Of a stretch of 64,000 nucleotides of DNA, positions 31,039 to 47,585 are shown in pieces. The notes beneath the pieces are model-generated. The model saw only the letters and a list, made by a program, of their open reading frames with translations, did not search any database and was not told the DNA's origin. Each line of letters begins with the position of its first letter. Position 1 is the first letter of the stretch. The translations under genes and the position numbers were made by a program. Source of the DNA: Pseudomonadota bacterium (GTDB lineage Bacteria; Pseudomonadota; Gammaproteobacteria; Burkholderiales; JAKAFK01); the NCBI GenBank assembly GCA_021817985.1, contig JAKAFK010000013.1, positions 1 through 64,000 on the forward strand, read 5' to 3'.

Positions 31039-32268
31039 CTAGCCGGGGCGCCCGTCGGCCCTGGTTCGAAGGTAGATCGGCGCGTATTTGGCAAACCAGG
31101 GCACAAAGCAGGCGAGCCAGGCCAGCGCCGCGACCGGGTAGAGGCGCGAAAGGGAATGACCGAAGACGGCTGCGATGTCCGGCGCCAGGCGAAGCGCCAC
31201 CACGGCCTGCAGCCCCCAGAACAGCACCCAGGTCGTCCCGTCGGCCATGAGGGGGCGCCCGCTGTGGCCGAGCGTGACGCGCGAGGCCATCGCAATGACC
31301 ATCCCGGCAAAATAGCCGATCGCCAGCGCATGCAAGGGTGCAAACCCCAGCGCATCGCGCCCGCCCCCGTTGAGAAGAACGATCAGGCTCGACGCCGCAT
31401 AGAGCAGGCAGGCGAGTCCCAGCCAGAGAAAGGAGACGTGCAGCACGGCGAGGAGCCTCACCTGGAAGGCGCGCCTGAGCCCCCAGGCAGCCGAGAGGGT
31501 CAAGGCAATGGCCGCCAGCGGCGCATCGGCCACCCAACGCCAGGCCGCCAGCCCGGCGAGCGAAAGACAGCCGTGAAGCGCCGCTAACCCCAGCGCCGCC
31601 CACAGAAGGCCATAGGGGCGCCACACCGTATAGTTCTCCAGGACGCAGCTCGAGAAAAACGGAATCATCCGATGGCTCACGGTCAGGAAGACCGGCACCA
31701 GACAGAACCAGATGCCCGCCGTCAAAGCGAAGGCGAGGGCCCCTGCATGGCCGGTCACAAGCCCGCCGATATACGCGAGGAGCCCGAGCCACCCCGCCCC
31801 GAGCGCGAACGTGGTCACTGCCGGATGGCGCTTGTCCGGGTGCGGGGTGCGCGCCCACAGGCGCGCCAGCGAGGACAGGGCGACCAGCCAACCGACCGCG
31901 AGAAGGCTCGCGCCGCCCGCCAGGAGGACCATCCCCCAGATCGTCCCCGCATAGAACAGGATCGTGCCCGCCGACATCAGGCAAAAGGTCGACACATAGA
32001 CGGGGGCGGTGACCTTCGGGGCGCTCATCCAGTTGGGATAAGTGGTAAACAGGAAGCCGAAAATGAAGAAGGGAAAGAAGGCGTAGATCATGAGGAACGC
32101 ATGAATCCATACCGCTGCGACCGAAAGCCCGGCGCTCGCCTCCGCCGGCCGCATCAGCGCATGCAGCCACCATGCGATGGCCGCCAGCGCTTGAACGGCG
32201 CCGGCCAGGAACATGACGCGGTGAGGCGCGGCCGTCAGAATCCGCCAGCGCAACAGGATGGATTTCAT
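31039..32268 (-). CDS. nnrS: NnrS family haem-copper membrane protein
   Basis: 409 residues with 12 predicted helices. Family motifs are IHAFLMIYAFFPFFIFGFLF, TYPNWM, FLTVSHRMIPFFSS and the C-terminal MASRVTLGHSGRPL. NnrS relieves damage from NO to metabolic iron. First gene of the operon nnrS-hemerythrin-DUF2249-28990 gene, behind an FNR/DNR-type box. Confidence 0.92.
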   Translation of the reverse strand: MKSILLRWRILTAAPHRVMFLAGAVQALAAIAWWLHALMRPAEASAGLSVAAVWIHAFLMIYAFFPFFIFGFLFTTYPNWMSAPKVTAPVYVSTFCLMSAGTILFYAGTIWGMVLLAGGASLLAVGWLVALSSLARLWARTPHPDKRHPAVTTFALGAGWLGLLAYIGGLVTGHAGALAFALTAGIWFCLVPVFLTVSHRMIPFFSSCVLENYTVWRPYGLLWAALGLAALHGCLSLAGLAAWRWVADAPLAAIALTLSAAWGLRRAFQVRLLAVLHVSFLWLGLACLLYAASSLIVLLNGGGRDALGFAPLHALAIGYFAGMVIAMASRVTLGHSGRPLMADGTTWVLFWGLQAVVALRLAPDIAAVFGHSLSRLYPVAALAWLACFVPWFAKYAPIYLRTRADGRPG

Positions 32269-32313
32269 GGGTATCTCGAAGCCCTCAGGGCTCGTTTGGG
32301 AGACGTCGCGGGA

Positions 32314-32356
32314 AGCATAAGCCTTGGGCAGACCCCAATGCCTTGATGCAGATCAA
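32314..32356 (-). promoter_or_regulatory. FNR/DNR-type box and -10 element of nnrS
   Basis: Perfect half-sites TTGAT-N4-ATCAA at 32343-32356. On the minus strand a -10-like TATGCT at 32319-32314 puts the start near 32307, so the box centre is about -42, the class II activating position. CRP/FNR-family NO or oxygen sensors use this site. Confidence 0.8.
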
Positions 32357-32408
32357 GGCACGCAGGACGGAACACGACAAACGTCCGCGCACAGCGCGCA
32401 CGGGATCC

Positions 32409-32819
32409 TCAGAATGAGGCGGGACGGACGAGATCGGCGAGGGTGTAGCGGTCGAGCGTCGCGAGAAAATTGGCGCGCGCCTCGACGAGCACGCCCTTCA
32501 GCCCACAGCCGGGCAGGAGCGCGCACCCTTGGATGTCGGAGTGGAAACACTCGGCGAGCGCCATGTTCTCCTCCATGGCGCGTACCACTTCGCCCAACCG
32601 GATGTCGTCAGGCAAGCGCGCGAGCCGCATGCCGCCGCCTTTGCCGCGCTGGGTGGCGATGAAGCCATGAAGCCCCAGCTGATGGACCACCTTCATCAGG
32701 TGGTTTTGGGAGATCCGGTGTGCCGTCGCCACCTCGGGAATAGTGGCCAAGCGTTCCGGATGCGCGGCAAGATAGATCAATACCCGCAGTGAGTAATCGG
32801 TGAAGCGCGTGAGCTGCAT
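32409..32819 (-). CDS. nsrR: NsrR-like Rrf2 repressor
   Basis: 136-residue Rrf2 winged-helix protein that starts MQLTRFTDYSLRVLIYLAAH. The recognition helix is ISQNHLMKVVHQL, followed by RGKGGGMRLA. Three Cys lie in CFHSDIQGCALLPGCGL, fitting the [4Fe-4S]/[2Fe-2S] centre that NsrR uses to sense NO. Just upstream of the nnrS operon in the same direction. IscR instead has a different Cys pattern, so NsrR is preferred. Confidence 0.88.
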   Translation of the reverse strand: MQLTRFTDYSLRVLIYLAAHPERLATIPEVATAHRISQNHLMKVVHQLGLHGFIATQRGKGGGMRLARLPDDIRLGEVVRAMEENMALAECFHSDIQGCALLPGCGLKGVLVEARANFLATLDRYTLADLVRPASF

Positions 32820-33023
32820 GGGGCGATCTCTGGGGCTGGTGCCGGCCGACGGACAGCACAAGACATACCAGCGATGATGATACCCGGACGGCGGCCTGCC
32901 GCGCAAATGACGGGCTGTCGCGACCGTGTTGCCGGACACGGCGGCGTCGGCACCGAGCCACGCCCCGGCCGGATGGAACACGCAGCGCCGTGAAGAACGG
33001 TCGCGACGGGCCCATCCCAGGGA

Positions 33024-35277: not shown

Positions 35278-35754
35278 CTACTGCGCGCGCGACTTCCTCC
35301 GAATTTCCTGCGCGACGCACTCGGCCAGACGTCCAATGGCGCGCTGCAGCACGCGCCCGGCCCCTCGTTGCCGGCCGATGCCGCCGATCTCGATGCCCCA
35401 GACAATGACTTCGTTCGGCATCCCCCCAATGGCTTGGGCCAAGGCGAGCGCATCGGCAACCCCAAACCCATGGGTCGAACGCAGCGCAGTGCCTGTGACC
35501 GGCAGGTCGGCCGCCTCGAGGCGATGCAGCGCGCCGAGGACCGCCCCCGAGCGCACCGCGTCGAGCAGCCAAACCGCCCGCGCACCGTGCATGCGCCCGA
35601 CCAATTCGACACCCGGGCGATCGAGCACCTCGACGCAGACCCCGGGAAGGCTGAAGTGCGCCTGCAGCAGGCGGGCCGTCGCCCAGCCCACGCGATCCTC
35701 GCCGAAAGGCGAGCCGATGCCGAAAACGCGCCAAGCCGCCGAAGGCGCGCTCAT
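35278..35754 (-). CDS. Hydrogenase maturation endopeptidase (HyaD/HycI family)
   Basis: 158-residue nickel-dependent protease that trims the C-terminus of the hydrogenase large subunit after NiFe insertion. Family features: FGIGSPFGEDRVGW (metal Glu), WLLDAVRSG (metal Asp) and STHGFGVADALALAQAIG (metal His). The start overlaps the large-subunit stop as ATGA. The predicted substrate tail after the last His of DPCISCATH is nine residues long. Confidence 0.9.
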   Translation of the reverse strand: MSAPSAAWRVFGIGSPFGEDRVGWATARLLQAHFSLPGVCVEVLDRPGVELVGRMHGARAVWLLDAVRSGAVLGALHRLEAADLPVTGTALRSTHGFGVADALALAQAIGGMPNEVIVWGIEIGGIGRQRGAGRVLQRAIGRLAECVAQEIRRKSRAQ

Positions 35755-37040
35755 GACCGAGCCACCTCGAGGTTCAGGAAATGCGTTGCGCAGGAGATGC
35801 ACGGGTCGTAGTTGCGGATGACGGCCTCCGCGCGAAGTTTCAGCGCCTCGTCCGTACTGTCCGCCCCTAGGGCGGCAAGCTCCGTCCGCAGATCCTCTTC
35901 GATCCGGGCCTGATTCTGGCTCGTGGGCGGCACGATCCGCGCCCGCACGACCCGCCCGGCGGAATCCAGCTCGTAGCGGTGCCACAAGATCCCCCGAGGG
36001 GCCTCCGTACAGCCGAATCCGACGCCCGGGCGCGGCGACGGCACCGCGAAAGGCTGCTCAGGTACGGCGTAGCCCTCGAGAAGCGCCGCCGCCTCGACGA
36101 TCGCGCAGTGAATCTCCACCGCCCGTGCAATGACGCTGTGAAAAGGATTGTACGAGGGAAAGGCAATGCCGGACGCCCGCGCGTGTTCGGCCACGGAAGA
36201 GGGCAGGCGGTCGGCATTGAGATTCAGCCGGGCAAGCGGCCCCACCAGATACGGCTTGCCCCGATGGAGGCACTGCAGCGCGGTGGAATACGCGGCCTGC
36301 CGTTCCTGGAATTCCGCCTCGAAGTCGGCCGCCGCGATGTCGAGACCTCGGTTGGAGACGATCCGCCCCTCGTTCATGGGATACTCGTCCGGGTGGCGCA
36401 GGCTCACGCACTCGAACACCTGCTCGGTGGCGGGCAAAGGAAGCGATGCCGTCCAGCTGACCAGCGCCTTGGCATCCTCCGCAGCCTGATCGAGCCGTGC
36501 CCGCAGCGCGCGCACAGACGCCTCGTCGGGCGCATGGTAAAACCCCCCGATGCGGGCACCGACCGGATGGACGGAACGCCCGCCCAAGAGTCGGATGATG
36601 TCGTTGCCGAGCCCTTGCAAGGCGAGCCCTCGCCGGACGATCGCGGGGTGCTCCTTCGCCAGTTCCAATGCGCTGGGATACCCGAGGAAATCCGGTGCGG
36701 CGAGCAGGTGAATATGCAGGCTATGGGACTCGATCCACTCGCCGCAGTAAAACAGGCGCCGCATCCGCCGCACCCATGGGCCGGGGGCAACGCCAAGGAT
36801 ACCCTCGATGGCATGGCATGCGCTCATCTGGTAGGCGACCGGGCAGATGCCGCAGATGCGTGCGACGATGTCGGGCACCTCTTCGAAGCTTCGCCCCTCC
36901 AGCAGTTTCTCGAACAACCGCGGCGGCTCGAAAATGCGCAGTTGAAGCGCCTCGATCACGCCATCGCGCACCGTCAGCGCAAGCGCGCCCTCCCCTTCCA
37001 CCCGCGCGAGGAGCGGGACCTTGACGCTGATCTCGCGCAT
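35751..37040 (-). CDS. hydA: HydA, [NiFe] hydrogenase large (alpha) subunit, group 3b
   Basis: 429-residue catalytic subunit. The NiFe ligands come from RICGICPVAYQMSA (N-terminal L1 motif) and DPCISCATH (C-terminal L2 motif). GFGCTEAPRGILWH-like sequence and ESHSLHIHLLAAPDFLGYPS match the HydA/HyhL family of bifunctional NADP-linked hydrogenases. ATG 37040 gives the family length. A further 16 codons back to ATG 37088, which overlaps the small-subunit stop, would add an Arg-rich leader MSRKRRRRPVRRTRRA; either start is possible. Confidence 0.93.
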   Translation of the reverse strand: MREISVKVPLLARVEGEGALALTVRDGVIEALQLRIFEPPRLFEKLLEGRSFEEVPDIVARICGICPVAYQMSACHAIEGILGVAPGPWVRRMRRLFYCGEWIESHSLHIHLLAAPDFLGYPSALELAKEHPAIVRRGLALQGLGNDIIRLLGGRSVHPVGARIGGFYHAPDEASVRALRARLDQAAEDAKALVSWTASLPLPATEQVFECVSLRHPDEYPMNEGRIVSNRGLDIAAADFEAEFQERQAAYSTALQCLHRGKPYLVGPLARLNLNADRLPSSVAEHARASGIAFPSYNPFHSVIARAVEIHCAIVEAAALLEGYAVPEQPFAVPSPRPGVGFGCTEAPRGILWHRYELDSAGRVVRARIVPPTSQNQARIEEDLRTELAALGADSTDEALKLRAEAVIRNYDPCISCATHFLNLEVARS

Positions 37041-37084: not shown

Positions 37085-37864
37085 TCATCGGGGCTCCTTC
37101 GCTCGAAGGCCGGCTTCGGCGAACGGCCCGGCCGCATTGTTGATCGACAGGAATCGCCGGGCGATCGCTTCGGGGCCAAGCCCGAGGCTCGCGAAGCGCT
37201 GCGTCAGGGCCACACTGTTGACTTGCTCCGACGGGCCGTAGCACCCGTAGCAGGCCCGTCCGAAGCGGGGGCACAATGCGCCGCAGCCGGATCGCGTCAC
37301 CGGCCCCATGCACGGCTCGCCGTGGGCGACGAGCACACAGACGTTGGCCTCGCGCTTGCACGTCGCGCAGACGCTGTCCCCCGGATTGAGAGGCCTCACC
37401 CCAAGCGCAAGATCATGGATCGCCGAGAAGACCTGGCGGCTGTCCACGGGGCAGCCCCATAACTCGAGATCCACGGCGACATAGCGGGAGATGGCGTGCG
37501 AGGCGCCCAGCAGGCTCACATACGCCGGACTCGGATAAATGGCGGCCACCCATTCCCGCCCGTCCGTCTGGAGGTTGCGCAGGGCTTGGATCCCGCCCGC
37601 CGTCGCGCAGGCGCCGATCGTCACCAGCGTGCGGGCATTCTTGCGCAGCTCCCGGATGCGGATCTCCTCCTCCGGGGTCGAGACGCTCCCCTCCACGAAG
37701 GCCACATCCACCGGGGCGTCGGGATCCACGTACCCCAGTTCGGCGAAATGGACGAATTCCACCCGATCGGCAAGGCGCATCACCTCTTCGACACGGTTGA
37801 GCAGCGCGAGCTGGCATCCGTCGCAGGAGCTGAACTTGTGTACGGACACCCTGAGCCTCGCCAT
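37085..37864 (-). CDS. hydD: HydD, [NiFe] hydrogenase small (delta) subunit, group 3b
   Basis: 259 residues with cysteines for three Fe-S clusters. SSCDGCQLALL is the proximal-cluster start; FVEGSVSTPEEE and GACATAGGIQALRNL are group 3 small-subunit signatures; GEPCMGPVTRSGCGALCPRF then CYGCYGP binds the distal clusters. No Tat signal, so the enzyme is cytoplasmic. Ten bases separate it from the FAD subunit gene. Confidence 0.93.
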   Translation of the reverse strand: MARLRVSVHKFSSCDGCQLALLNRVEEVMRLADRVEFVHFAELGYVDPDAPVDVAFVEGSVSTPEEEIRIRELRKNARTLVTIGACATAGGIQALRNLQTDGREWVAAIYPSPAYVSLLGASHAISRYVAVDLELWGCPVDSRQVFSAIHDLALGVRPLNPGDSVCATCKREANVCVLVAHGEPCMGPVTRSGCGALCPRFGRACYGCYGPSEQVNSVALTQRFASLGLGPEAIARRFLSINNAAGPFAEAGLRAKEPR

Positions 37865-37874
37865 GCGCCCTCCG

Positions 37875-38708
37875 TCAATAGCCGCGCGTTCCGAGCAATG
37901 CCTTGACTTCAGGATAGGCAAAAACCGGCCCGTCCTTGCACACGAACTTGGCCCCATACTGGCAATGTCCGCACAGGCCGAGCGCACACTGCATGTTCCG
38001 CTCCATGCTGAGGAAGATGGACTCCTCCGGCAGCCCTGCCCGGAGGAGGCGGCGCACAGCGACAACCATCATGCCTTCGGGACCGCACAGCATGGCCAGG
38101 GTGCGCGACGGATCATAGGCGAGATCATCGAAAAGATCGGTCACCAGTCCCACATGCCACGGCCATGAGGTGTCGCCTTCGTCGGCTGCCAGCAGCACCC
38201 GTGTGTCCGGGACACCTCGCCACGCTTCGTAGCGGTCGCGGTAGATCAGCTCGTGCGCGCGCTTGACGCCCTGGACGATGGAAAGCCGCCCGAACTCGGA
38301 CCGCCGATGGATGATGTAGTTGATGACGGCCACCGTGGGGGCACATCCGAGCCCGCCGGTCACGATGATGACATCGCGCCCACGTGCCCGGTCCATAGGC
38401 CATCCGCGACCGTAAGGCCCGCGCAGTCCGACGCAATCGCCAGGCTGCAGGCGCGCCAGGCCTTCGGTGACGCGCCCCACGCGACGAATGGTGTGGTCGA
38501 GCAGGACATCGCTCTCGGGATCCGAGACGATCGAGATCGGAATCTCCCCCACGCCGAAGAGGTAAACCATGTTGAATTGCCCGGGCACGAACCGGGGGGA
38601 GGGCGATGGCGCCAAGGGACGCAGCCGCAACGTGAAGATGCTGTCCGATTCGTCGACCCGCCCTACGATGCGCGCCCCTTCGGGGCAATGGGAATCGATG
38701 CCGTTCAA
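37875..38708 (-). CDS. hydG: HydG, FAD/NAD(P)-binding (gamma) subunit of group 3b hydrogenase
   Basis: 277-residue protein of the ferredoxin-NADP reductase/PyrK type. FAD site: VPGQFNMVYLFGVGE then SIVSDPE; NAD(P) site: VIIVTGGLGCAPTVAVINYI and LCGPEGMM. A C-terminal [2Fe-2S] motif is CALGLCGHCQYGAKFVC. TTG 38708 overlaps the upstream stop as TTGA. It passes electrons between the hydrogenase and NAD(P). Confidence 0.92.
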   Translation of the reverse strand: MNGIDSHCPEGARIVGRVDESDSIFTLRLRPLAPSPSPRFVPGQFNMVYLFGVGEIPISIVSDPESDVLLDHTIRRVGRVTEGLARLQPGDCVGLRGPYGRGWPMDRARGRDVIIVTGGLGCAPTVAVINYIIHRRSEFGRLSIVQGVKRAHELIYRDRYEAWRGVPDTRVLLAADEGDTSWPWHVGLVTDLFDDLAYDPSRTLAMLCGPEGMMVVAVRRLLRAGLPEESIFLSMERNMQCALGLCGHCQYGAKFVCKDGPVFAYPEVKALLGTRGY

Positions 38709-39829
38709 GGGGTTGCGGCCCCGCACACGGCGGCAGCCTCCTCCGTGATATCGATGCCGACCGGGCACCAGGTGATGCAGCGGCCGCAACCGACACACCC
38801 GCTGCGGCCAAACTGGTCATGCCAGCTGCCCAACTTGTGGGTGAGCCACTGCCGGTAGCGCGATCGGATGTCGGGCCGCACCTGCCGGCCGTGAATCGAG
38901 GCGTGCCCCTCGCTGAAGCAGGAATCCCACTCGCGATAGTGCTCGGCGCTTGTGCCGTCACCGGACACCTCTTCCCGCTCGCAGTGGCAAAAGCACGTGG
39001 GGCAGACCAGCGCGCAGTTTCCGCACGACAAGCAGCGTCCAGCCACCTCATCCCAGCGCGGATGCATGAGGTTCGCAAAAAGCGCCGCCTGCAGATCCCG
39101 TCCCGGGAGGGCGCGCGTCTGGGCGGCCCCTGCCGCGGCGACGCGCGCGCGCGCCTCGGCCTCCCGCACGTCCCCCGCCGAAGCGAGCCCAAGGTCCGCC
39201 AATGCGCGCGCCCCGCGTTCAGAGCCCGAGGCCGCAACGAACCCATCATCGAGCTCCGTGAGCGCGATGTCGAATCCGTCTCGCGTGGCAGGACCGTCGC
39301 CTGTCGACGCGCAAAAACAAGTGGCGCTCGCATGCGTGCAGTTGACCGCCACGACGAACAGCCCCTCGCGTCGGGCCGCATAGGCGCCATCCGGGCGTTC
39401 CCCGCCCAGAAAATGCCGATCCTGGATGGCCATCGCCGCAAGGTCGCAGCTGCGTGCCCCGATCACGGCCAGCCGCGCGTCCTCGACCTCGGCCGGCTCG
39501 AACGCAAGCGCCGCCTTGCGCCCGTCGACGCGCCAGAGCGTCTCGCGCGGCGCGAACAGCCAGGGTTTGAGCCCCTGCGGGCCGTTGGCGAAGGCAAACA
39601 TGCGCGCATCGCCCGCGGCCTGCAGCGCATAGGATCCCTTCTCCTGGCGGTCGCGCCATCCGATGGGAAATTCGTCCGCCTGCGCGAGGGACGCGAACTG
39701 AATCGCCCCGTCGCGCACGACCGGCCCAAGGCATCGATACCCTTCCGAGCGAAGGTGATCCATCAGGGCGGACAATCGTTCGCGGGGCAGGAAGACCATG
39801 GACGAGCGCACGCCCGGCTGTCGTGACAT
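38705..39829 (-). CDS. hydB: HydB, 4Fe-4S (beta) subunit of group 3b hydrogenase
   Basis: 374 residues. An N-terminal part (about 1-230) with GARSCDLAAMAIQD and CFCASTGDGP resembles the P. furiosus HydB, and the C-terminal half binds two [4Fe-4S] clusters through CLSCGNCALVCPTC and CVGCGRCITWCPVG. In archaeal relatives this subunit gives sulfur reductase activity. It is first of the four structural genes, 59 bases after hoxX. Confidence 0.9.
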   Translation of the reverse strand: MSRQPGVRSSMVFLPRERLSALMDHLRSEGYRCLGPVVRDGAIQFASLAQADEFPIGWRDRQEKGSYALQAAGDARMFAFANGPQGLKPWLFAPRETLWRVDGRKAALAFEPAEVEDARLAVIGARSCDLAAMAIQDRHFLGGERPDGAYAARREGLFVVAVNCTHASATCFCASTGDGPATRDGFDIALTELDDGFVAASGSERGARALADLGLASAGDVREAEARARVAAAGAAQTRALPGRDLQAALFANLMHPRWDEVAGRCLSCGNCALVCPTCFCHCEREEVSGDGTSAEHYREWDSCFSEGHASIHGRQVRPDIRSRYRQWLTHKLGSWHDQFGRSGCVGCGRCITWCPVGIDITEEAAAVCGAATP

Positions 39830-39888
39830 TCCCGCTGTATCCTCTCAAGGGTGATGGACGCCGCTTACAGCAGTATAGATATTCGCCG

Positions 39889-41622
39889 TCAGGGCCGGTC
39901 CTGGCCGTCCGTCGGGCACCCTCGGGCGCGGTGTCGGGCGAGATGCACAGGGGTGCGCGAATAGGGCACCCGGTGGACGAAGTTGTAGCGCGCCACATGA
40001 TAGCTCGGATCGAACCCGTAGAAGTTGAGCGCCATTTGTGCCATTTCTTCGGCGCGATGCTGGGCGAGGGGCTTGCGCGCCTCGTCCTCCTGGCGTTGCC
40101 GGCGCTTGAACGCGAGCCGATCCGCATAGTCCGTCCGGACGGCCAGCCGCGACGCCCACGCCTCAACCCCGGCCGGAAATCCCGCCGGTTCGCCTGCCCA
40201 GCAGCCGTCGATCAGGCCAAGCTCCGCGGCACGGAGCGCGGCGAGGGGAAGGCGGCTGTCGGCGAGCGCCTGCGCACGCGCATGCCCCACCCGCTTGGGC
40301 AGGAGATAGGTCCAGTATTCCGAACCATGGAGATTTCCCATCCCCCGATAATGGGGATTCAACACGATGCCGGCGCGCGCGAACACATAGTCGGCCGCAA
40401 GCGCCAGGCATACCCCGCCGGCTGCCGCGTTGCCCCGCAGCGCGGCGACGGTGAGGTGCGTGTCGCATTCGATGATGGCGCGCACCAGATCATTCATCGC
40501 CTCGACGTTGCGCCAGGACTCATCGGCGGGAGACTCCGCGGCTTCGATCTCGTGCAGATGGATGCCGTTCGACCAGAAGTCCGCCCCGCCCTCCAGCACG
40601 ATGATGCGCGTATCGCGCCGTTGCGCGTGGCGGAAGGCTTCGAGCAGGCGCAGACACTGGTCCGCGCTCATCGCGCCGTTGTAGAAGTCGAACCGCAGAT
40701 AGCCCACCCGCGCCTTTTCTCGATAGCGGATGTCGCGATAGGTGCGCGGGCCATCCGGCGAAGCGAGCGGCACTGCGAGTTCCGGCAGCCGCGCCGCGAT
40801 CGTCCCGAGCACGCAGGTGGCGGGGAGCTTGGGCCCGCGCCCGTCCGGATGCTTTTCCTGCAGGTGCCCGATCCACACCGCGCCGTCGCGCGTCGCACGC
40901 AAAATGGCCCCGTGCCGGCGCGCGAGCAGCTCGCCCGGTCGCCGCCCGCGCACCACGTCCTCGGGGTGGGCGTCATAGAGGTAGACCTCTTGCCCGTCAA
41001 TCCGGTCGAGTACCCCGGGCGAGCCGTCGGCGGCCCGGATCTTGCGCAGGATCGCGAGGCTTCCGTCCGATGCCCAATCGATCACCCGATCGCACTGGCG
41101 CATGGGGGGATGCACGCGCCCTTTCATGCCCGGATCTCGATCATCCTGGGGCAGGGGCCGAAAATAGGGATCGCGCATGCGCGCGAGCACCTGCTGCACG
41201 GCCTCCCACGCGCAATCGGCCACCTCCCGCCGGTAGAGGCTTCCCTTGGTACCCTCGCGCAGGGTGAACGGCACGCTCGCCCAGATGTCGCCGGCGTCCC
41301 ACTGACCGTTCGCCTGCAAGGCGGTCACGCCCCATTCCTGTCGTCCTTCGGCCATCGCCCAGTCCAGCGCGGACGGACCGCGATCGCCGGGGATGCCGGG
41401 GTGGATCACGATGCTCAGCACGCTGCGCCAGATCGTCTCGGGAATGGCCCGTTTGAGAAAGGGCGCGAGAACCAGATGCGGGCAATAGCGCGCCGCCGCC
41501 TCCAAGGTGATGGCCTCGCTGATGTCGAATTCGACCGACACTTCATGGCCCAGACGCGCCAGCTCGCAATAAAGGCGCTGCGCCAGGCTATTGAACGCGT
41601 GGACCAGCAACAGGATGCGCAC
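39889..41622 (-). CDS. hoxX: HoxX, CO-forming maturation protein of [NiFe] hydrogenase
   Basis: 577 residues, two domains. The N-terminal formyl-transferase-like part starts VRILLLVHAFNSLAQRLY and has the SIVIHPGIPGDRGPSALDWA segment; the C-terminal enoyl-CoA-hydratase-like part has EGGADFWSNGIHLHEIEAAE and ALRGNAAAGGVCLALAADYV. HoxX converts formyl-THF via formyl-CoA to the CO ligand of the active site in aerobic conditions. GTG 41622 chosen, 11 bases after the hypE stop. Confidence 0.92.
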   Translation of the reverse strand: MRILLLVHAFNSLAQRLYCELARLGHEVSVEFDISEAITLEAAARYCPHLVLAPFLKRAIPETIWRSVLSIVIHPGIPGDRGPSALDWAMAEGRQEWGVTALQANGQWDAGDIWASVPFTLREGTKGSLYRREVADCAWEAVQQVLARMRDPYFRPLPQDDRDPGMKGRVHPPMRQCDRVIDWASDGSLAILRKIRAADGSPGVLDRIDGQEVYLYDAHPEDVVRGRRPGELLARRHGAILRATRDGAVWIGHLQEKHPDGRGPKLPATCVLGTIAARLPELAVPLASPDGPRTYRDIRYREKARVGYLRFDFYNGAMSADQCLRLLEAFRHAQRRDTRIIVLEGGADFWSNGIHLHEIEAAESPADESWRNVEAMNDLVRAIIECDTHLTVAALRGNAAAGGVCLALAADYVFARAGIVLNPHYRGMGNLHGSEYWTYLLPKRVGHARAQALADSRLPLAALRAAELGLIDGCWAGEPAGFPAGVEAWASRLAVRTDYADRLAFKRRQRQEDEARKPLAQHRAEEMAQMALNFYGFDPSYHVARYNFVHRVPYSRTPVHLARHRARGCPTDGQDRP

Positions 41623-41633
41623 GGGGCAAGGCG

Positions 41634-42686
41634 TCAGCAGATGCGCGGCAATTGGTCGCCGCGACGCCAATCGACATGGCGTTGCCCCCCCAGCCGCGTC
41701 GTCATCTGGACGAAGCACAGCGGATCGGCGGCCACTTCGCCGATGATCGCCGAGCGCTCGCCCAACGGGTGGGCGCGCATCGCCTCGAGCAGCGTCGGTG
41801 CCTGTCCCTTGGCGCAAATCGCCAGAAGCTTGCCCTCGTTGGCGAGATAAAGCGGATCGAAGCCGAAGAGCTCGCACGCCGCGGACACCTCCGGGCGAAT
41901 GGGAATGGACGCCTCCACGAGGTTCATCCCCACGCCCGAGGCCCATGCCAGCTCATTCAGGGCGGTGGCAAGCCCGCCGCGGGTCGGATCGCGCAAGCAA
42001 TGAATATCGGGCACCGCATCGGTCATTGCGGCGACCAGCCCGTGCAGCGCGCAGGTATCCGATTCGATGGGGCTTTCGAACCCTAAGGGCCCGCGCGCCG
42101 AAAGGATTGCCACGCCATGCTCTCCCAGGGTGCCGCTCACGATGATCGCGTCGGTGGGGCGCGCACGCTCGGCGGAAATCTCGACGCCGTCGCGGACCAG
42201 ACCGATGCCCGTGGTATTGATGAACAGGCCATCGCCCTTGCCGCGCTCGACGACCTTGGTATCCCCGGTCACCACCGCAACCCCGGCGGCGGCAGCCGCA
42301 CGGGCCATGGACTCGACGACGCGCTTCAAATCAGCCAGGGGAAATCCCTCCTCCAGGATGAAGCCGGCCGAAAGGTACAAAGGCCGGGCGCCTGCCATGG
42401 CGACGTCATTAATGGTGCCGTTCACGGCGAGTGCGCCGATGTCGCCGCCCGGGAAGAAGAGGGGCGAGACGACATGGCTGTCCGTCGCCATCACGATGCG
42501 GCCGGGCGGCAGCGCCAGCAGGGCCTGATCGTTGCCTTTGCGCAGCCACTCATTGTCGAACGCCGCCATGAAAAGCTCGTCGATGAGCTGTGCGGTCGCC
42601 TTGCCGCCGCTGCCATGGGTCATCTCGATGCGGCCGCCCACGAAGTCCAGCGGCCGGATATAGCCTTTCGTGCGGTGCACGATCAA
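41634..42686 (-). CDS. hypE: HypE, carbamoyl dehydratase for the cyanide ligands
   Basis: 350-residue PurM-like enzyme that dehydrates the thiocarboxamide on its own C-terminal Cys to thiocyanate; the protein ends PRIC as required. Other features: MTHGSGGKATAQLIDELF, ATDSHVVSPLFFPGGDIG, VVTGDTKVV and DPTRGGLATALNE. TTG 42686 overlaps hypD's stop (TTGA). Confidence 0.95.
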   Translation of the reverse strand: MIVHRTKGYIRPLDFVGGRIEMTHGSGGKATAQLIDELFMAAFDNEWLRKGNDQALLALPPGRIVMATDSHVVSPLFFPGGDIGALAVNGTINDVAMAGARPLYLSAGFILEEGFPLADLKRVVESMARAAAAAGVAVVTGDTKVVERGKGDGLFINTTGIGLVRDGVEISAERARPTDAIIVSGTLGEHGVAILSARGPLGFESPIESDTCALHGLVAAMTDAVPDIHCLRDPTRGGLATALNELAWASGVGMNLVEASIPIRPEVSAACELFGFDPLYLANEGKLLAICAKGQAPTLLEAMRAHPLGERSAIIGEVAADPLCFVQMTTRLGGQRHVDWRRGDQLPRIC

Positions 42687-43822
42687 GCACCTCCCTCACG
42701 GGCGGGCCGCCGGCGTCCATAGGCATAATGGGCGGCGCACGCCCCTTCCGCCGACACCATGCACGAGCCGATCGGGCTCTCCGGCGTGCATGCGGTCCCG
42801 AATATTTTGCACTGTTCCGGCGTCTTGATGCCGCGCACAACCGCCCCGCATTCGCACGCCCGGGGATCGGGGACGGCCCGGTAGTTGAGCCCGAAGCGCG
42901 TCTCGGCGTCGAAGGCCCGGAAACGCTCCTTGAGCTTGAGTGCGCTATACGGCACTTCCCCCAGCCCGCGCCACTCGAAAAGACGGCGCAGCTCGAAGAC
43001 TTCCGCGACCAGCGCCTGCGCCTTCCGATTGCCCTCGCGCGAGACCGCCCGCCGGTATTGGTTCTCCACCTGGGCGCGGCCTTCGTTCAGCTGGCCGATC
43101 AACATCAGGATCGCCTGCAGGAGATCGAGCGGCTCAAAGCCCGCGATCACCACAGGACATTGGTACTCGCGCGCAAAATACTCGAAGGACCGGCTGCCGA
43201 TGACCGTGCTCACGTGCGAGGGTCCGAGGAATCCGTCCACGGGCGCGGGTCCGGTCTCGCGCAGTGCGGGGGCTTCCAGGATATTGAGCATCGCCGCCGG
43301 CGTGACCACATGGTTGCAGAGCACGGTGAAGTTTCGCAGCCCTAGCGCGTGCGCCTGGCGGACCGCCACGGCGGTGGGCGGCGTCGTGGTTTCGAAGCCG
43401 ATGGCGAAAAGAACGACCTCGCGGCCGGGGTGCTCGCACGCGATGCGGATGGCATCGGCACTCGAGTAAAGGAGGCGCACGTCGGCGCCTTGCGCCTTGA
43501 CGGAAGCCAGGCTCGTGCCGCGGGAGGCCGGTACGCGCATCATATCGCCATAGGTGCACAAGATGACGTCCTCTCGGCCCGCCAGTTCGATCGCGCTGTC
43601 GAGCCGCCCGATGGGCAGCACGCAAACCGGGCACCCGGGCCCATGGATCATGCGGATGTTGTCGGGCAACAGGGCATCGATCCCGAAGCGCGCCAATGCG
43701 TGCGTGTGCCCCCCGCAAAACTCCATCAGGCGGTAGCGGCGACGGGAATCGGCCTGCCGCCGGATGGCGTCCACCAGGCCGCCCGCAAGGTGCGCGTCGC
43801 GAAATTCGTCGATATACTTCAC
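42683..43822 (-). CDS. hypD: HypD, Fe-S scaffold for Fe(CN)2CO assembly
   Basis: 379 residues. Conserved motifs: YRLMEFCGGHTHAL, IHGPGCPVCVLPIGR, ILCTYGDMMRVP, FAIGFETTTPPTA, and the C-terminal Cys cluster for the [4Fe-4S] centre (CECGAVVRGIKTPEQCKIFG, ESPIGSCMVSAEGACAAHY). Works with HypC and HypE. Overlaps hypC by four bases. Confidence 0.96.
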   Translation of the reverse strand: MKYIDEFRDAHLAGGLVDAIRRQADSRRRYRLMEFCGGHTHALARFGIDALLPDNIRMIHGPGCPVCVLPIGRLDSAIELAGREDVILCTYGDMMRVPASRGTSLASVKAQGADVRLLYSSADAIRIACEHPGREVVLFAIGFETTTPPTAVAVRQAHALGLRNFTVLCNHVVTPAAMLNILEAPALRETGPAPVDGFLGPSHVSTVIGSRSFEYFAREYQCPVVIAGFEPLDLLQAILMLIGQLNEGRAQVENQYRRAVSREGNRKAQALVAEVFELRRLFEWRGLGEVPYSALKLKERFRAFDAETRFGLNYRAVPDPRACECGAVVRGIKTPEQCKIFGTACTPESPIGSCMVSAEGACAAHYAYGRRRPAREGGA

Positions 43823-44052
43823 GGCTGCCCACCCCCCAGGGCCGCCATTTCGGCGAACAGGCGCAACGTCGTCTGTGCCTGCGCCGCATCCACCTTTGCC
43901 AGCGCGTAGCCGACATGGACGATGACGTAATCGCCCACCGCCACCTCCTCCAGCAGGGCCAGCGATATCTCCTTGCGCACCCCGCCCACGTCCGCGAGCG
44001 CCTGCTCACCCGCCCGAAGCTCAATCACTTGCGCCGGAATGGCTAGACACAT
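43819..44052 (-). CDS. hypC: HypC, hydrogenase assembly chaperone
   Basis: 77 residues. The N-terminal MCLAIPAQV carries the essential Cys2 that binds iron and the large-subunit precursor, followed by VGDYVIVHVGYAL. Operates with HypD in Fe(CN)2CO transfer. Confidence 0.95.
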   Translation of the reverse strand: MCLAIPAQVIELRAGEQALADVGGVRKEISLALLEEVAVGDYVIVHVGYALAKVDAAQAQTTLRLFAEMAALGGGQP

Positions 44053-44076: not shown

Positions 44077-46392
44077 TCAGTTTCCGGAAAGCATTCGCAT
44101 CGCCACCCAGGCCTGCCCGAGACTGATGCCGCCGTCGTTGGGAGGCGCCTGCCGCGCATGAAGCACCGTCAGGCCCTGGGCGCTCAAACGGGCAGCGAGC
44201 GACGCACTGAGGAGCCGGTTGACGAAGCAGCCGCCCCCCAGGGCGACCCGACGCACCCCGCGTCGCGCGGCGGCGGGAATGACCCATGCCGCAAGGCCGG
44301 CGCTGAGCGTGGCGTGGAACAGCGCAGCGCCCCGGCGCTGATCGGTGATGCCGGAAAGCGCATCGAGCAACGGCAGGAAATCAAGGGTCCCTTCCGCCGT
44401 GAGCCGATAGCCGCCCGCCAGCGGCGCGACCCCCCCGTGCTCCGCCGCCAGGCTCTCGAGCCGCATCGCGGCGTGCGCCTCGAAGCCTTGGCGATCGGAA
44501 ATGCCCAACAGACCGGCCGCCGCGTCGAACCAGCGCCCCGCACTGCTGGTCGGGGGGCTGTTGAGCCCGTGCGAGAGCATCGCGGCTATCGCCTGCCCCG
44601 GCGCCCCGTAACGCCGCCCGATCTCGTCTTGGCGACCGAGCAGATGCAGCGCGCCGCAGGCCATGCGCCAAGGTGCCTGCGCGGCCCGGTCGCCTCCCGG
44701 CAGCGGAAGCTCGCGCAGGTGTCCGATGCGGGTCATGGCCGATCCCGCCAGGTAAAGCAGTTCGCCGCCCCAAATGCCGCCGTCCGTCCCAAGCCCCATG
44801 CCGTCGAGCGCAATGCCGAGTGCTGCCTCGTCCCCGCCGTGTTCGGCCAGCACGGCGGCGATGTGCGCGTGATGATGCTGGACCGCGATCGTCGGAACCT
44901 CCCGCTCGCGCGCATACTCGGCGGCAAAGGTACTGCCGAAGAATTCGGGATGGCCATCGTGCGCCACGCCCTCCGGCATCACGCCGAGCAGCCGGGTCAG
45001 ATGGCGAACGGTCTCGCCCCATGCCCGGCAGCTCGCGCGATCGTCCAAATCGCCGATGTGGGGCGACAAGAACGCCTGGGCGCCCCGCGTGAGACATACC
45101 GTGTTCTTGAGCTCGGCGCCGCACGCCAGCACGGAAGGTCCGGCCTGAGGCAGCGCAATAGGCTGCGGGCTGAACCCGCGCCCGCGGCGGATAAAGGCGG
45201 GCCCGCCGGATCCGAGCAGCATCACGCTGTCGTCGCAGCGCGCCAGGATCGCGCGATCATGCACGAGAAAGGCGTCCGCGACCCCCGCAAGCCTGTCAAG
45301 CGCATCGGCGTTGTCCGTGACCAGGGGTTCTCCCCCCGGATTGGCGCTCGTCATGACGAGGACAAGCGGCGGTGGACAGCCCAGCCAGTGCGTGCCGTCG
45401 GGACGTCCGGCGGCCTCGTGGAACAGGAGCCAATGGACCGGCGCATAGGGAAGCATCGCCCCCAGCCACGCGAACCCGTCGGCCACGCCACGAAGACGTC
45501 CGTCGCATTCGGGCATTTTGCGCAGGAGCACGATGGGGCGCTCCCGCCCCTCGAGAAGGCTGCGCTCCTCCGGACTCAGCCACGCGTAGCCCGAGAGCGC
45601 CTCGCAGGTCGGGAACATCACGGCGAAGGGTTTGTCGTCGCGCCCCTTGCACGCCCGCAGCCGCGCGACGGCGTCGGCATTGCGCGCATCGCAGAGCAGA
45701 TGAAAGCCCCCCGCATCCTTGAGCGCCACGATCTCCCCTCGAGAAAGGCGCGCCAGCGCCGCCTCGATCGGATCGCCTGCGTCCGTGGCTCGCACCTGCG
45801 AGTCCACCAGCCGAAGCTGCGGCCCGCACGCGGGACAGGCATTGAGCTCGGCGTGAAAACGGCGGTCATGCGCATCTTCGTATTCGTGCCGGCACGCCGC
45901 GCACGACGGGAACGCCGCCATGCTGGTCCGCCCCCGATCGAAGGGCAGGGAGGCGGTTAGGCTGTAGCGCGGCCCGCAGGCCGTGCAGTGGGTGAAGGCG
46001 TATCGATAGCGACGGTTGCCGGGGTCGAACAGTTCCGCCAGGCACTCGGGACAAACGGCGGCATCGGGCGCGCTCGTGGTGGCCACGGCGCCTGCCCGGC
46101 TTGGCCGGATCGCGAACGTTTCGCCATCGGCGGCGGGCGCGCACTCTTCGGCGTCGAGGGCATCGATTCGGGCGAGCGCAGGGGCTTCATCAAGAAGCCG
46201 CCGGGCGAATGCCTCGAAGCCGCCGGGACCCTGCAGCTCGATCTCGACGCCGTACGCGTCGTTGCGAACCCAGCCGGCGAAGCCCATTTCGCGCGCGAGG
46301 CGGTACACGAGCGGACGAAAGCCGACGCCTTGCACCTGTCCGGAAACGCGCAGGCGCCACCGCGCGACGCGCGACGACTCCGCAGGGGCCAT
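44077..46392 (-). CDS. hypF: HypF, carbamoyltransferase
   Basis: 771 residues. Domain order is acylphosphatase (VSGQVQGVGFRPLVYRLA), two zinc-finger-like pairs (CPECLAELFDPGNRRY, HCTACGPRYS, CAACRHEYEDA, NACPACGPQ), YrdC-like (GEIVALKDAGGFHLLCDA), and a Kae1-like C-terminal domain (VQHHHAHIAAVLAEHG, ALDGMGLGTDGGIWGGE). It transfers a carbamoyl group to HypE. The ATG at 46392 lies four bases after the hypB stop. Confidence 0.95.
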   Translation of the reverse strand: MAPAESSRVARWRLRVSGQVQGVGFRPLVYRLAREMGFAGWVRNDAYGVEIELQGPGGFEAFARRLLDEAPALARIDALDAEECAPAADGETFAIRPSRAGAVATTSAPDAAVCPECLAELFDPGNRRYRYAFTHCTACGPRYSLTASLPFDRGRTSMAAFPSCAACRHEYEDAHDRRFHAELNACPACGPQLRLVDSQVRATDAGDPIEAALARLSRGEIVALKDAGGFHLLCDARNADAVARLRACKGRDDKPFAVMFPTCEALSGYAWLSPEERSLLEGRERPIVLLRKMPECDGRLRGVADGFAWLGAMLPYAPVHWLLFHEAAGRPDGTHWLGCPPPLVLVMTSANPGGEPLVTDNADALDRLAGVADAFLVHDRAILARCDDSVMLLGSGGPAFIRRGRGFSPQPIALPQAGPSVLACGAELKNTVCLTRGAQAFLSPHIGDLDDRASCRAWGETVRHLTRLLGVMPEGVAHDGHPEFFGSTFAAEYAREREVPTIAVQHHHAHIAAVLAEHGGDEAALGIALDGMGLGTDGGIWGGELLYLAGSAMTRIGHLRELPLPGGDRAAQAPWRMACGALHLLGRQDEIGRRYGAPGQAIAAMLSHGLNSPPTSSAGRWFDAAAGLLGISDRQGFEAHAAMRLESLAAEHGGVAPLAGGYRLTAEGTLDFLPLLDALSGITDQRRGAALFHATLSAGLAAWVIPAAARRGVRRVALGGGCFVNRLLSASLAARLSAQGLTVLHARQAPPNDGGISLGQAWVAMRMLSGN

Positions 46393-46396
46393 GACG

Positions 46397-47242
46397 TCAA
46401 GCCGCACGCGCACCCGCCTCGATCCAGGCCAGCCATTCCGAAAACCCCTGCCCGCCGGTGGCCGAGACCTCGATGACCCCAAGGTGCGGGTTGATCTCCC
46501 GCGCATAGCCGATGCAGGCTTCCACATCGAAGCTCACATAGGGCAGGAGGTCGACCTTGTTCACAAGCATCAGGTCGGCGGCGTGGAACATGTCGGGGTA
46601 CTTGAGCGGCTTGTCCTCCCCCTCCGTGACCGAAAGGATGACGACCTTGTGGTCTTCTCCCAGATCGAAAGCCGCCGGGCAGACCAGGTTGCCGACGTTT
46701 TCGATGAAGAGCACCCCGCCCGCCTCGAGCGGCAGGCTCTGCAGCGCCCGGCCCACGCGATGGGCGTCCAGATGGCAGCCCTTGCCGGTATTGATCTGAA
46801 CGGCGGGCACCCCGGCGCCCCGGATGCGCTCGGCATCCCGGGAGCTCGCCTGATCGCCTTCGATCACCCAGGCCGGGATGCGGGACTTGAGCGCGGCCAG
46901 CGTACGCACGAGAAGGGTCGTCTTGCCCGCCCCCGGGCTCGACACCAAATTGAGCGCGAAGATGCCGTGGTGCTTGAGCTGCGCCCGATTGCGCCGCGCC
47001 TCGTCATTGTTGCGCCCCAGGATCTCCTGCTCGATCCGCAGGCGCTGCGTCGCGCCGAGACCGGGCTCGTGGGCCATCGCCAAGGGGCCGCAGACCTGCG
47101 CCGATGCGCCCTGGAACCCGCCCGCGCGCGCAGCCCGCGGCGCGGTTGCGAGCAACGGCCATCGCCGTTGCCCGTCAAGCGGCCGGTATCGAACCGCCTG
47201 GGCCTCGGGCACGCCGTGCCCGCATCCGCATGTCACGCACAC
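46397..47242 (-). CDS. hypB: HypB, nickel-inserting GTPase
   Basis: 281 residues. An N-terminal MCVTCGCGHG motif fits the high-affinity Ni site of E. coli HypB; then a G domain with P-loop SSPGAGKTTLL, switch ENVGNLVCP, and NKVDLLPYV. No long His-rich stretch, so storage of Ni is limited. GTG start 47242 abuts the hypA stop. Confidence 0.95.
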   Translation of the reverse strand: MCVTCGCGHGVPEAQAVRYRPLDGQRRWPLLATAPRAARAGGFQGASAQVCGPLAMAHEPGLGATQRLRIEQEILGRNNDEARRNRAQLKHHGIFALNLVSSPGAGKTTLLVRTLAALKSRIPAWVIEGDQASSRDAERIRGAGVPAVQINTGKGCHLDAHRVGRALQSLPLEAGGVLFIENVGNLVCPAAFDLGEDHKVVILSVTEGEDKPLKYPDMFHAADLMLVNKVDLLPYVSFDVEACIGYAREINPHLGVIEVSATGGQGFSEWLAWIEAGARAA

Positions 47243-47243
47243 G

Positions 47244-47585
47244 CTAACTGGCCTCCATCTCCAACACCTTGAGCTCGCTGCCGCGCGTGACTTGCACGCC
47301 AGGATGCCCGCACGCCGGACAGGCGTCGTAGCGCCTTGCCAGCGCGACGCGTCGACCGCAGCCCGTGCAGCGCCCGCTGCCCGGCACGGCAACCAGATTC
47401 ACGCGGGCCTCTTGCGCGATGCTGCCCGTCAGGACGACGCGCAAGGCCAGCCGCAGCGCCTCGCGGTCCACCCCTGCAAGCTCGCCGACCTCGATGGCAA
47501 TCCCCGTCACGCGATGAAGCCTGTGGACGCGCGCGGATTCCTCGACGATTCTGAGCACGCTCTCGGCCATGAAAAACTCGTGCAT
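47244..47585 (-). CDS. hypA: HypA, nickel metallochaperone
   Basis: 113 residues. The N-terminal MHEFFMAESVLRIVEES supplies His2 for Ni binding; the zinc site is CTGC...CPAC. It works with HypB to load Ni into the large subunit. First hyp gene, 25 bases after a diheme cytochrome gene in the same direction. Confidence 0.94.
   Translation of the reverse strand: MHEFFMAESVLRIVEESARVHRLHRVTGIAIEVGELAGVDREALRLALRVVLTGSIAQEARVNLVAVPGSGRCTGCGRRVALARRYDACPACGHPGVQVTRGSELKVLEMEAS

Follow-up and report, generated by a model that had tools for sequence, protein, structure and literature searches.

The hydrogenase locus

In the window (the whole 64,000 nt stretch of DNA that was analysed), we find one minus-strand operon with genes transcribed in the order hypA-B-F-C-D-E-hoxX-hydB-G-D-A-protease. 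In Table 1, we report the coordinates of the genes and the matches by which they were assigned. The initial annotation had placed hoxX between hypE and hydB and assigned it to a group 3b hydrogenase operon, and both statements hold: hoxX is a full-length gene that reads from a GTG start at 41622 to a stop at 39889 and encodes 577 amino acids, its neighbours are verified by family models, and it is separated from hypE by 11 nt and from hydB by 59 nt in an operon with matches to the 3b subunits. The hoxX-hydB spacer (39830-39888) is similar in a congener and contains the sequence TATACT; a separate promoter for hydBGDA may lie there. Elsewhere in the window (31039-32981), an NnrS-type protein adjoins an Rrf2-type regulator, a pair that hints at a response to nitric oxide encoded next to the hydrogenase genes.

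Table 1. Genes of the operon in order of transcription, with assigned product and supporting evidence.
Gene	Product	Coordinates	Strand	Evidence
hypA	nickel metallochaperone	47244..47585	-	TIGR00100 90.1 bits, above cut-off
hypB	nickel GTPase (start inferred)	46397..47242	-	TIGR00073 278.8 bits
hypF	carbamoyltransferase	44077..46392	-	TIGR00143 722 bits
hypC	scaffold chaperone	43819..44052	-	TIGR00074 86.5 bits
hypD	Fe-S scaffold	42683..43822	-	TIGR00075 458.6 bits; HoxX-type lineage
hypE	cyanide-ligand dehydratase	41634..42686	-	TIGR02124 454.9 bits; HoxX-type lineage
hoxX/hypX	predicted N10-formyl-THF:CoA formyltransferase / formyl-CoA decarbonylase (CO-ligand synthase)	39889..41622	-	PDB 6j0p, residues, domains
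hydB	3b beta subunit (Fe-S)	38705..39829	-	NF040833 4.5e-40, under curated cut-off; Fer4_22
hydG	3b gamma subunit (FAD/NAD(P) reductase; start inferred)	37875..38708	-	NF040835 5.8e-49; NAD_binding_1, DHODB Fe-S
hydD	3b small subunit	37085..37864	-	NF040836 1.3e-45; Oxidored_q6
hydA	3b large subunit	35751..37040	-	NF040828 4.8e-74; 9nez 1.3e-63; RICGIC and DPCISCATH
	hydrogenase maturation protease	35278..35754	-	TIGR00072 77.5 bits, above cut-off

All four structural subunits (HydB, HydG, HydD and HydA) match sulfhydrogenase subunit models, in each case under the curated cut-off of the equivalog, and the sulfhydrogenase gamma model is outscored on HydG by AsrB and by a related gamma-subunit model. 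The best solved relatives of HydA are sulfhydrogenase 1 alpha chains (9nez, 218.9 bits, E 1.3e-63), compared with 166 bits for the 3c, 150.7 bits for the 3d and 134 bits for the 3a-like solved enzymes of group 3. The nickel-ligand motifs RICGIC and DPCISCATH of HydA are shared with nearly all the 3b large subunits that we compared, and the Pyrococcus-type sulfhydrogenase 1 (HydBGDA) has the same four subunits with RICGIC and DPCISC. The affinity to sulfhydrogenase alpha chains and the nickel-ligand motifs give the assignment to group 3b good support at the sequence level. The operon encodes an NAD(P)-binding reductase subunit (HydG), and the enzyme is probably NADP(H)-linked. Group 3b hydrogenases are usually assigned to low-oxygen metabolism. 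In the HydDB worked examples, their role is mainly fermentative (PMC5037454).

HoxX and its target

The nearest solved structure to the HoxX of the window is Aquifex aeolicus HypX (6j0p, E 3e-168), to which it aligns over residues 1-566. The Formyl_trans_C and ECH_1 domains score above the Pfam cut-offs and Formyl_trans_N slightly under it, and the protein has both an N-terminal formyl-THF transferase domain and a C-terminal domain similar to enoyl-CoA hydratase. The catalytic residues proposed for A. aeolicus HypX are H74, D80, D109, Y416 and E426 (PMC6802093). All five are identical in the window, as H74, D80, D109, Y425 and E435, and the five positions are invariant across 100/100 compared HoxX sequences. 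Decay of the window gene is not supported, as the gene is full length, its catalytic residues are intact and it has changes at 3 of 120 near-invariant columns; neither is its divergence, for its lineage, above that of HypD and HypE. HypX passes the formyl group of formyl-THF to CoA and then decarbonylates the product to CO, a chemistry associated with comparatively high O2 (PMC12134894). The route from N10-formyl-THF to CO via formyl-CoA is known for Cupriavidus necator HypX (reviewed in PMC12134894), and a HypC-HypD-HypX complex has been reported in A. aeolicus (PMC6802093). The window HoxX is thus predicted to have CO-synthase activity.

The genome of the window is a 3.97 Mb draft in 184 contigs, 96% complete, in which a further hydrogenase could be missed. 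A search with the [NiFe] large-subunit family returns the HydA of the window and one weak match. Another hydrogenase elsewhere in the genome would have spoken against the initial annotation, and no second intact [NiFe] large subunit is found at this completeness; with no intact [NiFe]-hydrogenase found besides the 3b enzyme, this enzyme is the only visible target of HoxX. The weak match to PF00374 (L003, contig C59, 7301-10501) is rejected as a target: it reads RISGDST, and it has neither the terminal CxxC nor the nickel ligands. This large subunit lies beside membrane-arm-like and small-subunit-like frames, and from the RISGDST motif, the missing terminal CxxC and the membrane-arm-like neighbours, it looks like part of a nickel-less complex of the hydrogenase-4/Nuo kind.

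Frequency of the HoxX-3b pairing

Amongst 399 genomes of the order, HoxX is present in 35, a 3b large subunit in 29, and both in three (the window genome, G011 and G801), compared with 2.5 expected by chance. Amongst 398 genomes of the phylum, the numbers are 22 for HoxX and 28 for 3b, with two genomes carrying both (the window genome and G241, where the pair is unlinked) and 1.5 expected. Co-occurrence is about at chance level in the two samples, and the window is the only case in either where HoxX and 3b share a locus, so that the pairing is as unusual as had been proposed.

From data with one genome per species, we also collected the 80 closest HoxX loci by sequence. The large subunits within reach are mostly group 1-type or group 2-type, as judged from motifs and spot-checked via solved relatives. 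A 3b search in 50 of the genomes found linked HoxX and 3b genes at two loci, one in a Rhodospirillales MAG (L071) and one in a Hyphomicrobiales MAG (L080) in which the 3b enzyme is the sole clear [NiFe] large subunit. In these two alphaproteobacterial lineages, the pairing is independent of that in the window. A gammaproteobacterial MAG (L108) has HoxX and, on a separate contig, 3b as its sole [NiFe] enzyme. The pairing is rare, and no report of hypX together with a sulfhydrogenase was met in the literature searched. HoxX also occurs with hypDE in many Nitrosomonas-type ammonia oxidisers (L031, L039, L047, L049, L079 and others). For the Nitrosomonas genomes, the 3b search gives weak, distant matches only, and three Nitrosomonas-related loci that we read have a 3d-type motif, one of them confirmed by its nearest solved relative, the NAD-reducing hydrogenase 5xf9.

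Ancestry of the operon

HoxX loci across the order have the arrangement hypA-B-F-C-D-E-hoxX in common, as in G771, G534, G516 and G801. The sampled 3b operons differ from that of the window in being mostly without hoxX; in those without it, the adjacent hyp genes are absent or belong to another lineage, as in an example with the order protease-hypF-C-D-E and much lower similarity to the hyp genes of the window. In the HypD+HypE tree, the window and its congener fall among HoxX-linked cassettes of other hydrogenases, with a support of 94/97 that falls just short of the tool's star, and a tree constrained to join the window HypD/HypE to the 3b-type hyp proteins is rejected (p-AU 0.0007). The window proteins appear to share their lineage with HoxX-linked cassettes that serve enzymes of groups 1, 2 and 3d. 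In the HydA tree, the window lies inside a 3b clade without linked HoxX (support 96/89 for the grouping with G029 and 97/88 for the larger clade around it). A single origin of the HoxX-3b pairing is rejected for HydA, where the HoxX-linked 3b large subunits do not form one clade (p-AU 1e-8), and the HoxX tree needs three changes to explain the 3b linkage, at least two of which are forced by well-supported branches. The simplest reading, which draws on two gene trees with some long branches, has an entire maturation cassette of the HoxX type joining a resident 3b structural operon. As for direction and time, an intact hypABFCDE-hoxX cassette of the group 1, 2 and 3d lineage would have been placed upstream of the 3b operon in the ancestor of the genus. 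HoxX probably did not evolve for the 3b enzyme.

A congener with a decayed hoxX

Our searches returned one further genome of the genus (G001, 92% complete). It carries a syntenic operon with the same neighbours (an HDOD protein, RpoS and Rrf2) at about 88% DNA identity, and one [NiFe] locus was found in it. The hoxX gene is absent between its hypE and hydB. Local alignment against the window hoxX detects two scraps in that interval (L172 6963-7200, contig C58 of G001). The first has about 69 nt matching the start of hoxX and scores 42, where the best of 500 shuffles scores 20. The second, which scores 47 against 23 for the best of 300 shuffles, has 93 nt corresponding to hoxX codons 82-112, of which 70 are identical, and includes an in-frame stop. 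In this second scrap, a short piece, the differences are distributed as 5/12/6 over the codon positions and the divergence of 0.30 equals the dS of the operon (0.24-0.39), as expected for free decay. Between window and congener, dN/dS is 0.15-0.37 for hypA-F and hydB, G, D and A, and the hyp and hyd genes of the congener are still under purifying selection. Because the scraps are at the same site, hoxX was present in the operon of the common ancestor and was lost in one line, and we reject a separate gain of hoxX, in the window alone, by an operon that had never carried it. Its loss in a species that keeps the hydrogenase makes HoxX conditionally dispensable.

Oxygen and CO2 fixation

The window genome has aa3-type, cbb3-type and bd oxidases. 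The congener has aa3 and bd, and no cbb3 oxidase was found in its 92% complete genome. RuBisCO genes are present in both genomes, each with about three large-chain-like genes. Strong matches to the heme-copper oxidase family, which can include NO reductases, occur in 16 of the 19 other 3b genomes without HoxX, so that 3b enzymes in respiring bacteria need no HoxX, and aerobic capacity and 3b without HoxX appear to be commonly combined. The loss of hoxX in a congener bearing aa3 and bd suggests that this hydrogenase may depend little on HoxX. What HoxX informs on is maturation; it says nothing of catalysis in O2. The initial annotation had expected from HoxX that the 3b enzyme is matured in air, and had suggested an aerobic H2 metabolism. 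Neither can be deduced from hoxX alone, given a cassette of the type tied to other hydrogenases, the loss of the gene in the congener and the 16/19 cases without HoxX. Maturation in air stays plausible.

Interpretation

We think it fairly probable that HoxX is an active CO-ligand synthase for the sole [NiFe]-hydrogenase of this bacterium, the 3b enzyme, with a benefit conditional on O2. We see it as borrowed with its cassette and conditionally dispensable because the operon is a mosaic and the congener has lost hoxX. The N-terminal domain would hand the formyl group of N10-formyl-THF to CoA, and the C-terminal domain would decarbonylate formyl-CoA to CO. HypCD would receive the CO on its iron, and its Fe(CN)2CO unit would be placed into HydA, which the protease of the operon would then trim. 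The benefit that we propose is that HoxX would permit assembly of the 3b enzyme while O2 blocks the other source of CO. More tentatively, a 3b enzyme with a borrowed HoxX cassette could be assembled in air and turn H2 into NADPH for CO2 fixation, as the soluble hydrogenase of C. necator does; the same reading has the cassette borrowed at least two times, with species within one genus differing.

It is rather unlikely, in our judgement, that HoxX owes its selection to a 3b enzyme which requires it and which is matured and works in air, with H2 giving NADPH for aerobic CO2 fixation. An intact HoxX inside the operon of the sole hydrogenase found would fit, as would the three oxidases and the RuBisCO genes of the window genome and the recurrence of the pairing in the Hyphomicrobiales MAG and, twice, in the Rhodospirillales MAG. 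However, the congener without hoxX retains its 3b operon, aa3, bd and RuBisCO, oxidase-family genes are frequent in 3b genomes without HoxX, and the role of HoxX is in maturation. Since the cassette is of a type tied to other hydrogenases, hoxX may also be baggage that arrived in a hyp cassette whose own hydrogenase has since been lost, without benefit for 3b and in the course of being lost. Such an origin agrees with the HoxX-type ancestry of the hyp genes and with the pattern of decay in the congener, but it sits poorly with a window copy that is full length, keeps its catalytic residues and all but 3 of the 120 near-invariant columns, and diverges no more than HypD/HypE, and we regard it as improbable. 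Least credible, and very unlikely indeed, is that HoxX serves another hydrogenase absent from the draft assembly: HoxX cassettes are usually near group 1, 2 or 3d enzymes and the assembly is fragmented, but no second intact large subunit appears at 96% completeness, the congener likewise has one [NiFe] locus found, and hoxX is inside the 3b operon.

Comparison with known systems

In C. necator, hyp genes with hoxX (hypX) accompany an O2-tolerant soluble hydrogenase (3d) and a membrane-bound one (1d). The window resembles C. necator in the domain architecture of HoxX, in having hypX in the hyp cluster, in serving a soluble NAD(P)-linked hydrogenase and in the CO2-fixing host (general knowledge and PMC12134894), whereas the target in the window is of the sulfhydrogenase type and is the sole hydrogenase found. 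A. aeolicus has the HypX most directly comparable in structure, with its hypX in what we take to be a different genomic setting. HypX and a group 3b enzyme were both reported in the Neptuniibacter caesariensis genome in 2010 (PMC2974642). Unlike the window genome, it encodes further hydrogenases of membrane-bound, cyanobacterial-type and sensor kinds (PMC2974642), and the target of its HypX is not defined because of these further enzymes. The Rhodospirillales MAG BS150m-G3 (L071/L177, L178) and the Hyphomicrobiales MAG Centralia_MAG_73 (L080/L176) are like the window in the clustering of 3b genes, protease, hyp and hoxX. They differ in having hyp-hoxX downstream of hydA, where the window has it upstream of hydB, and in that their HydA and HoxX fall outside the clades of the window.

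The operon brings a known maturase into a rarely seen partnership, and a sister species has naturally lost that maturase. It separates having HoxX from having an O2-tolerant uptake hydrogenase, two things that are often merged, and it warns that aerobic H2 use is not readable from hoxX alone. The window and its congener provide a natural comparison with and without hoxX. The origin of CO without HoxX, a question raised in PMC12134894, is open to study in these two species, which have closely similar HydA and HypCD, one of them with HoxX and the other lacking it.

The Rhodospirillales MAG (G474; L177, L178) has the cluster hydBGDA-protease-hypABFCDE-hoxX twice, together with a group 1 enzyme. 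The two clusters possibly come from two strains in one bin.
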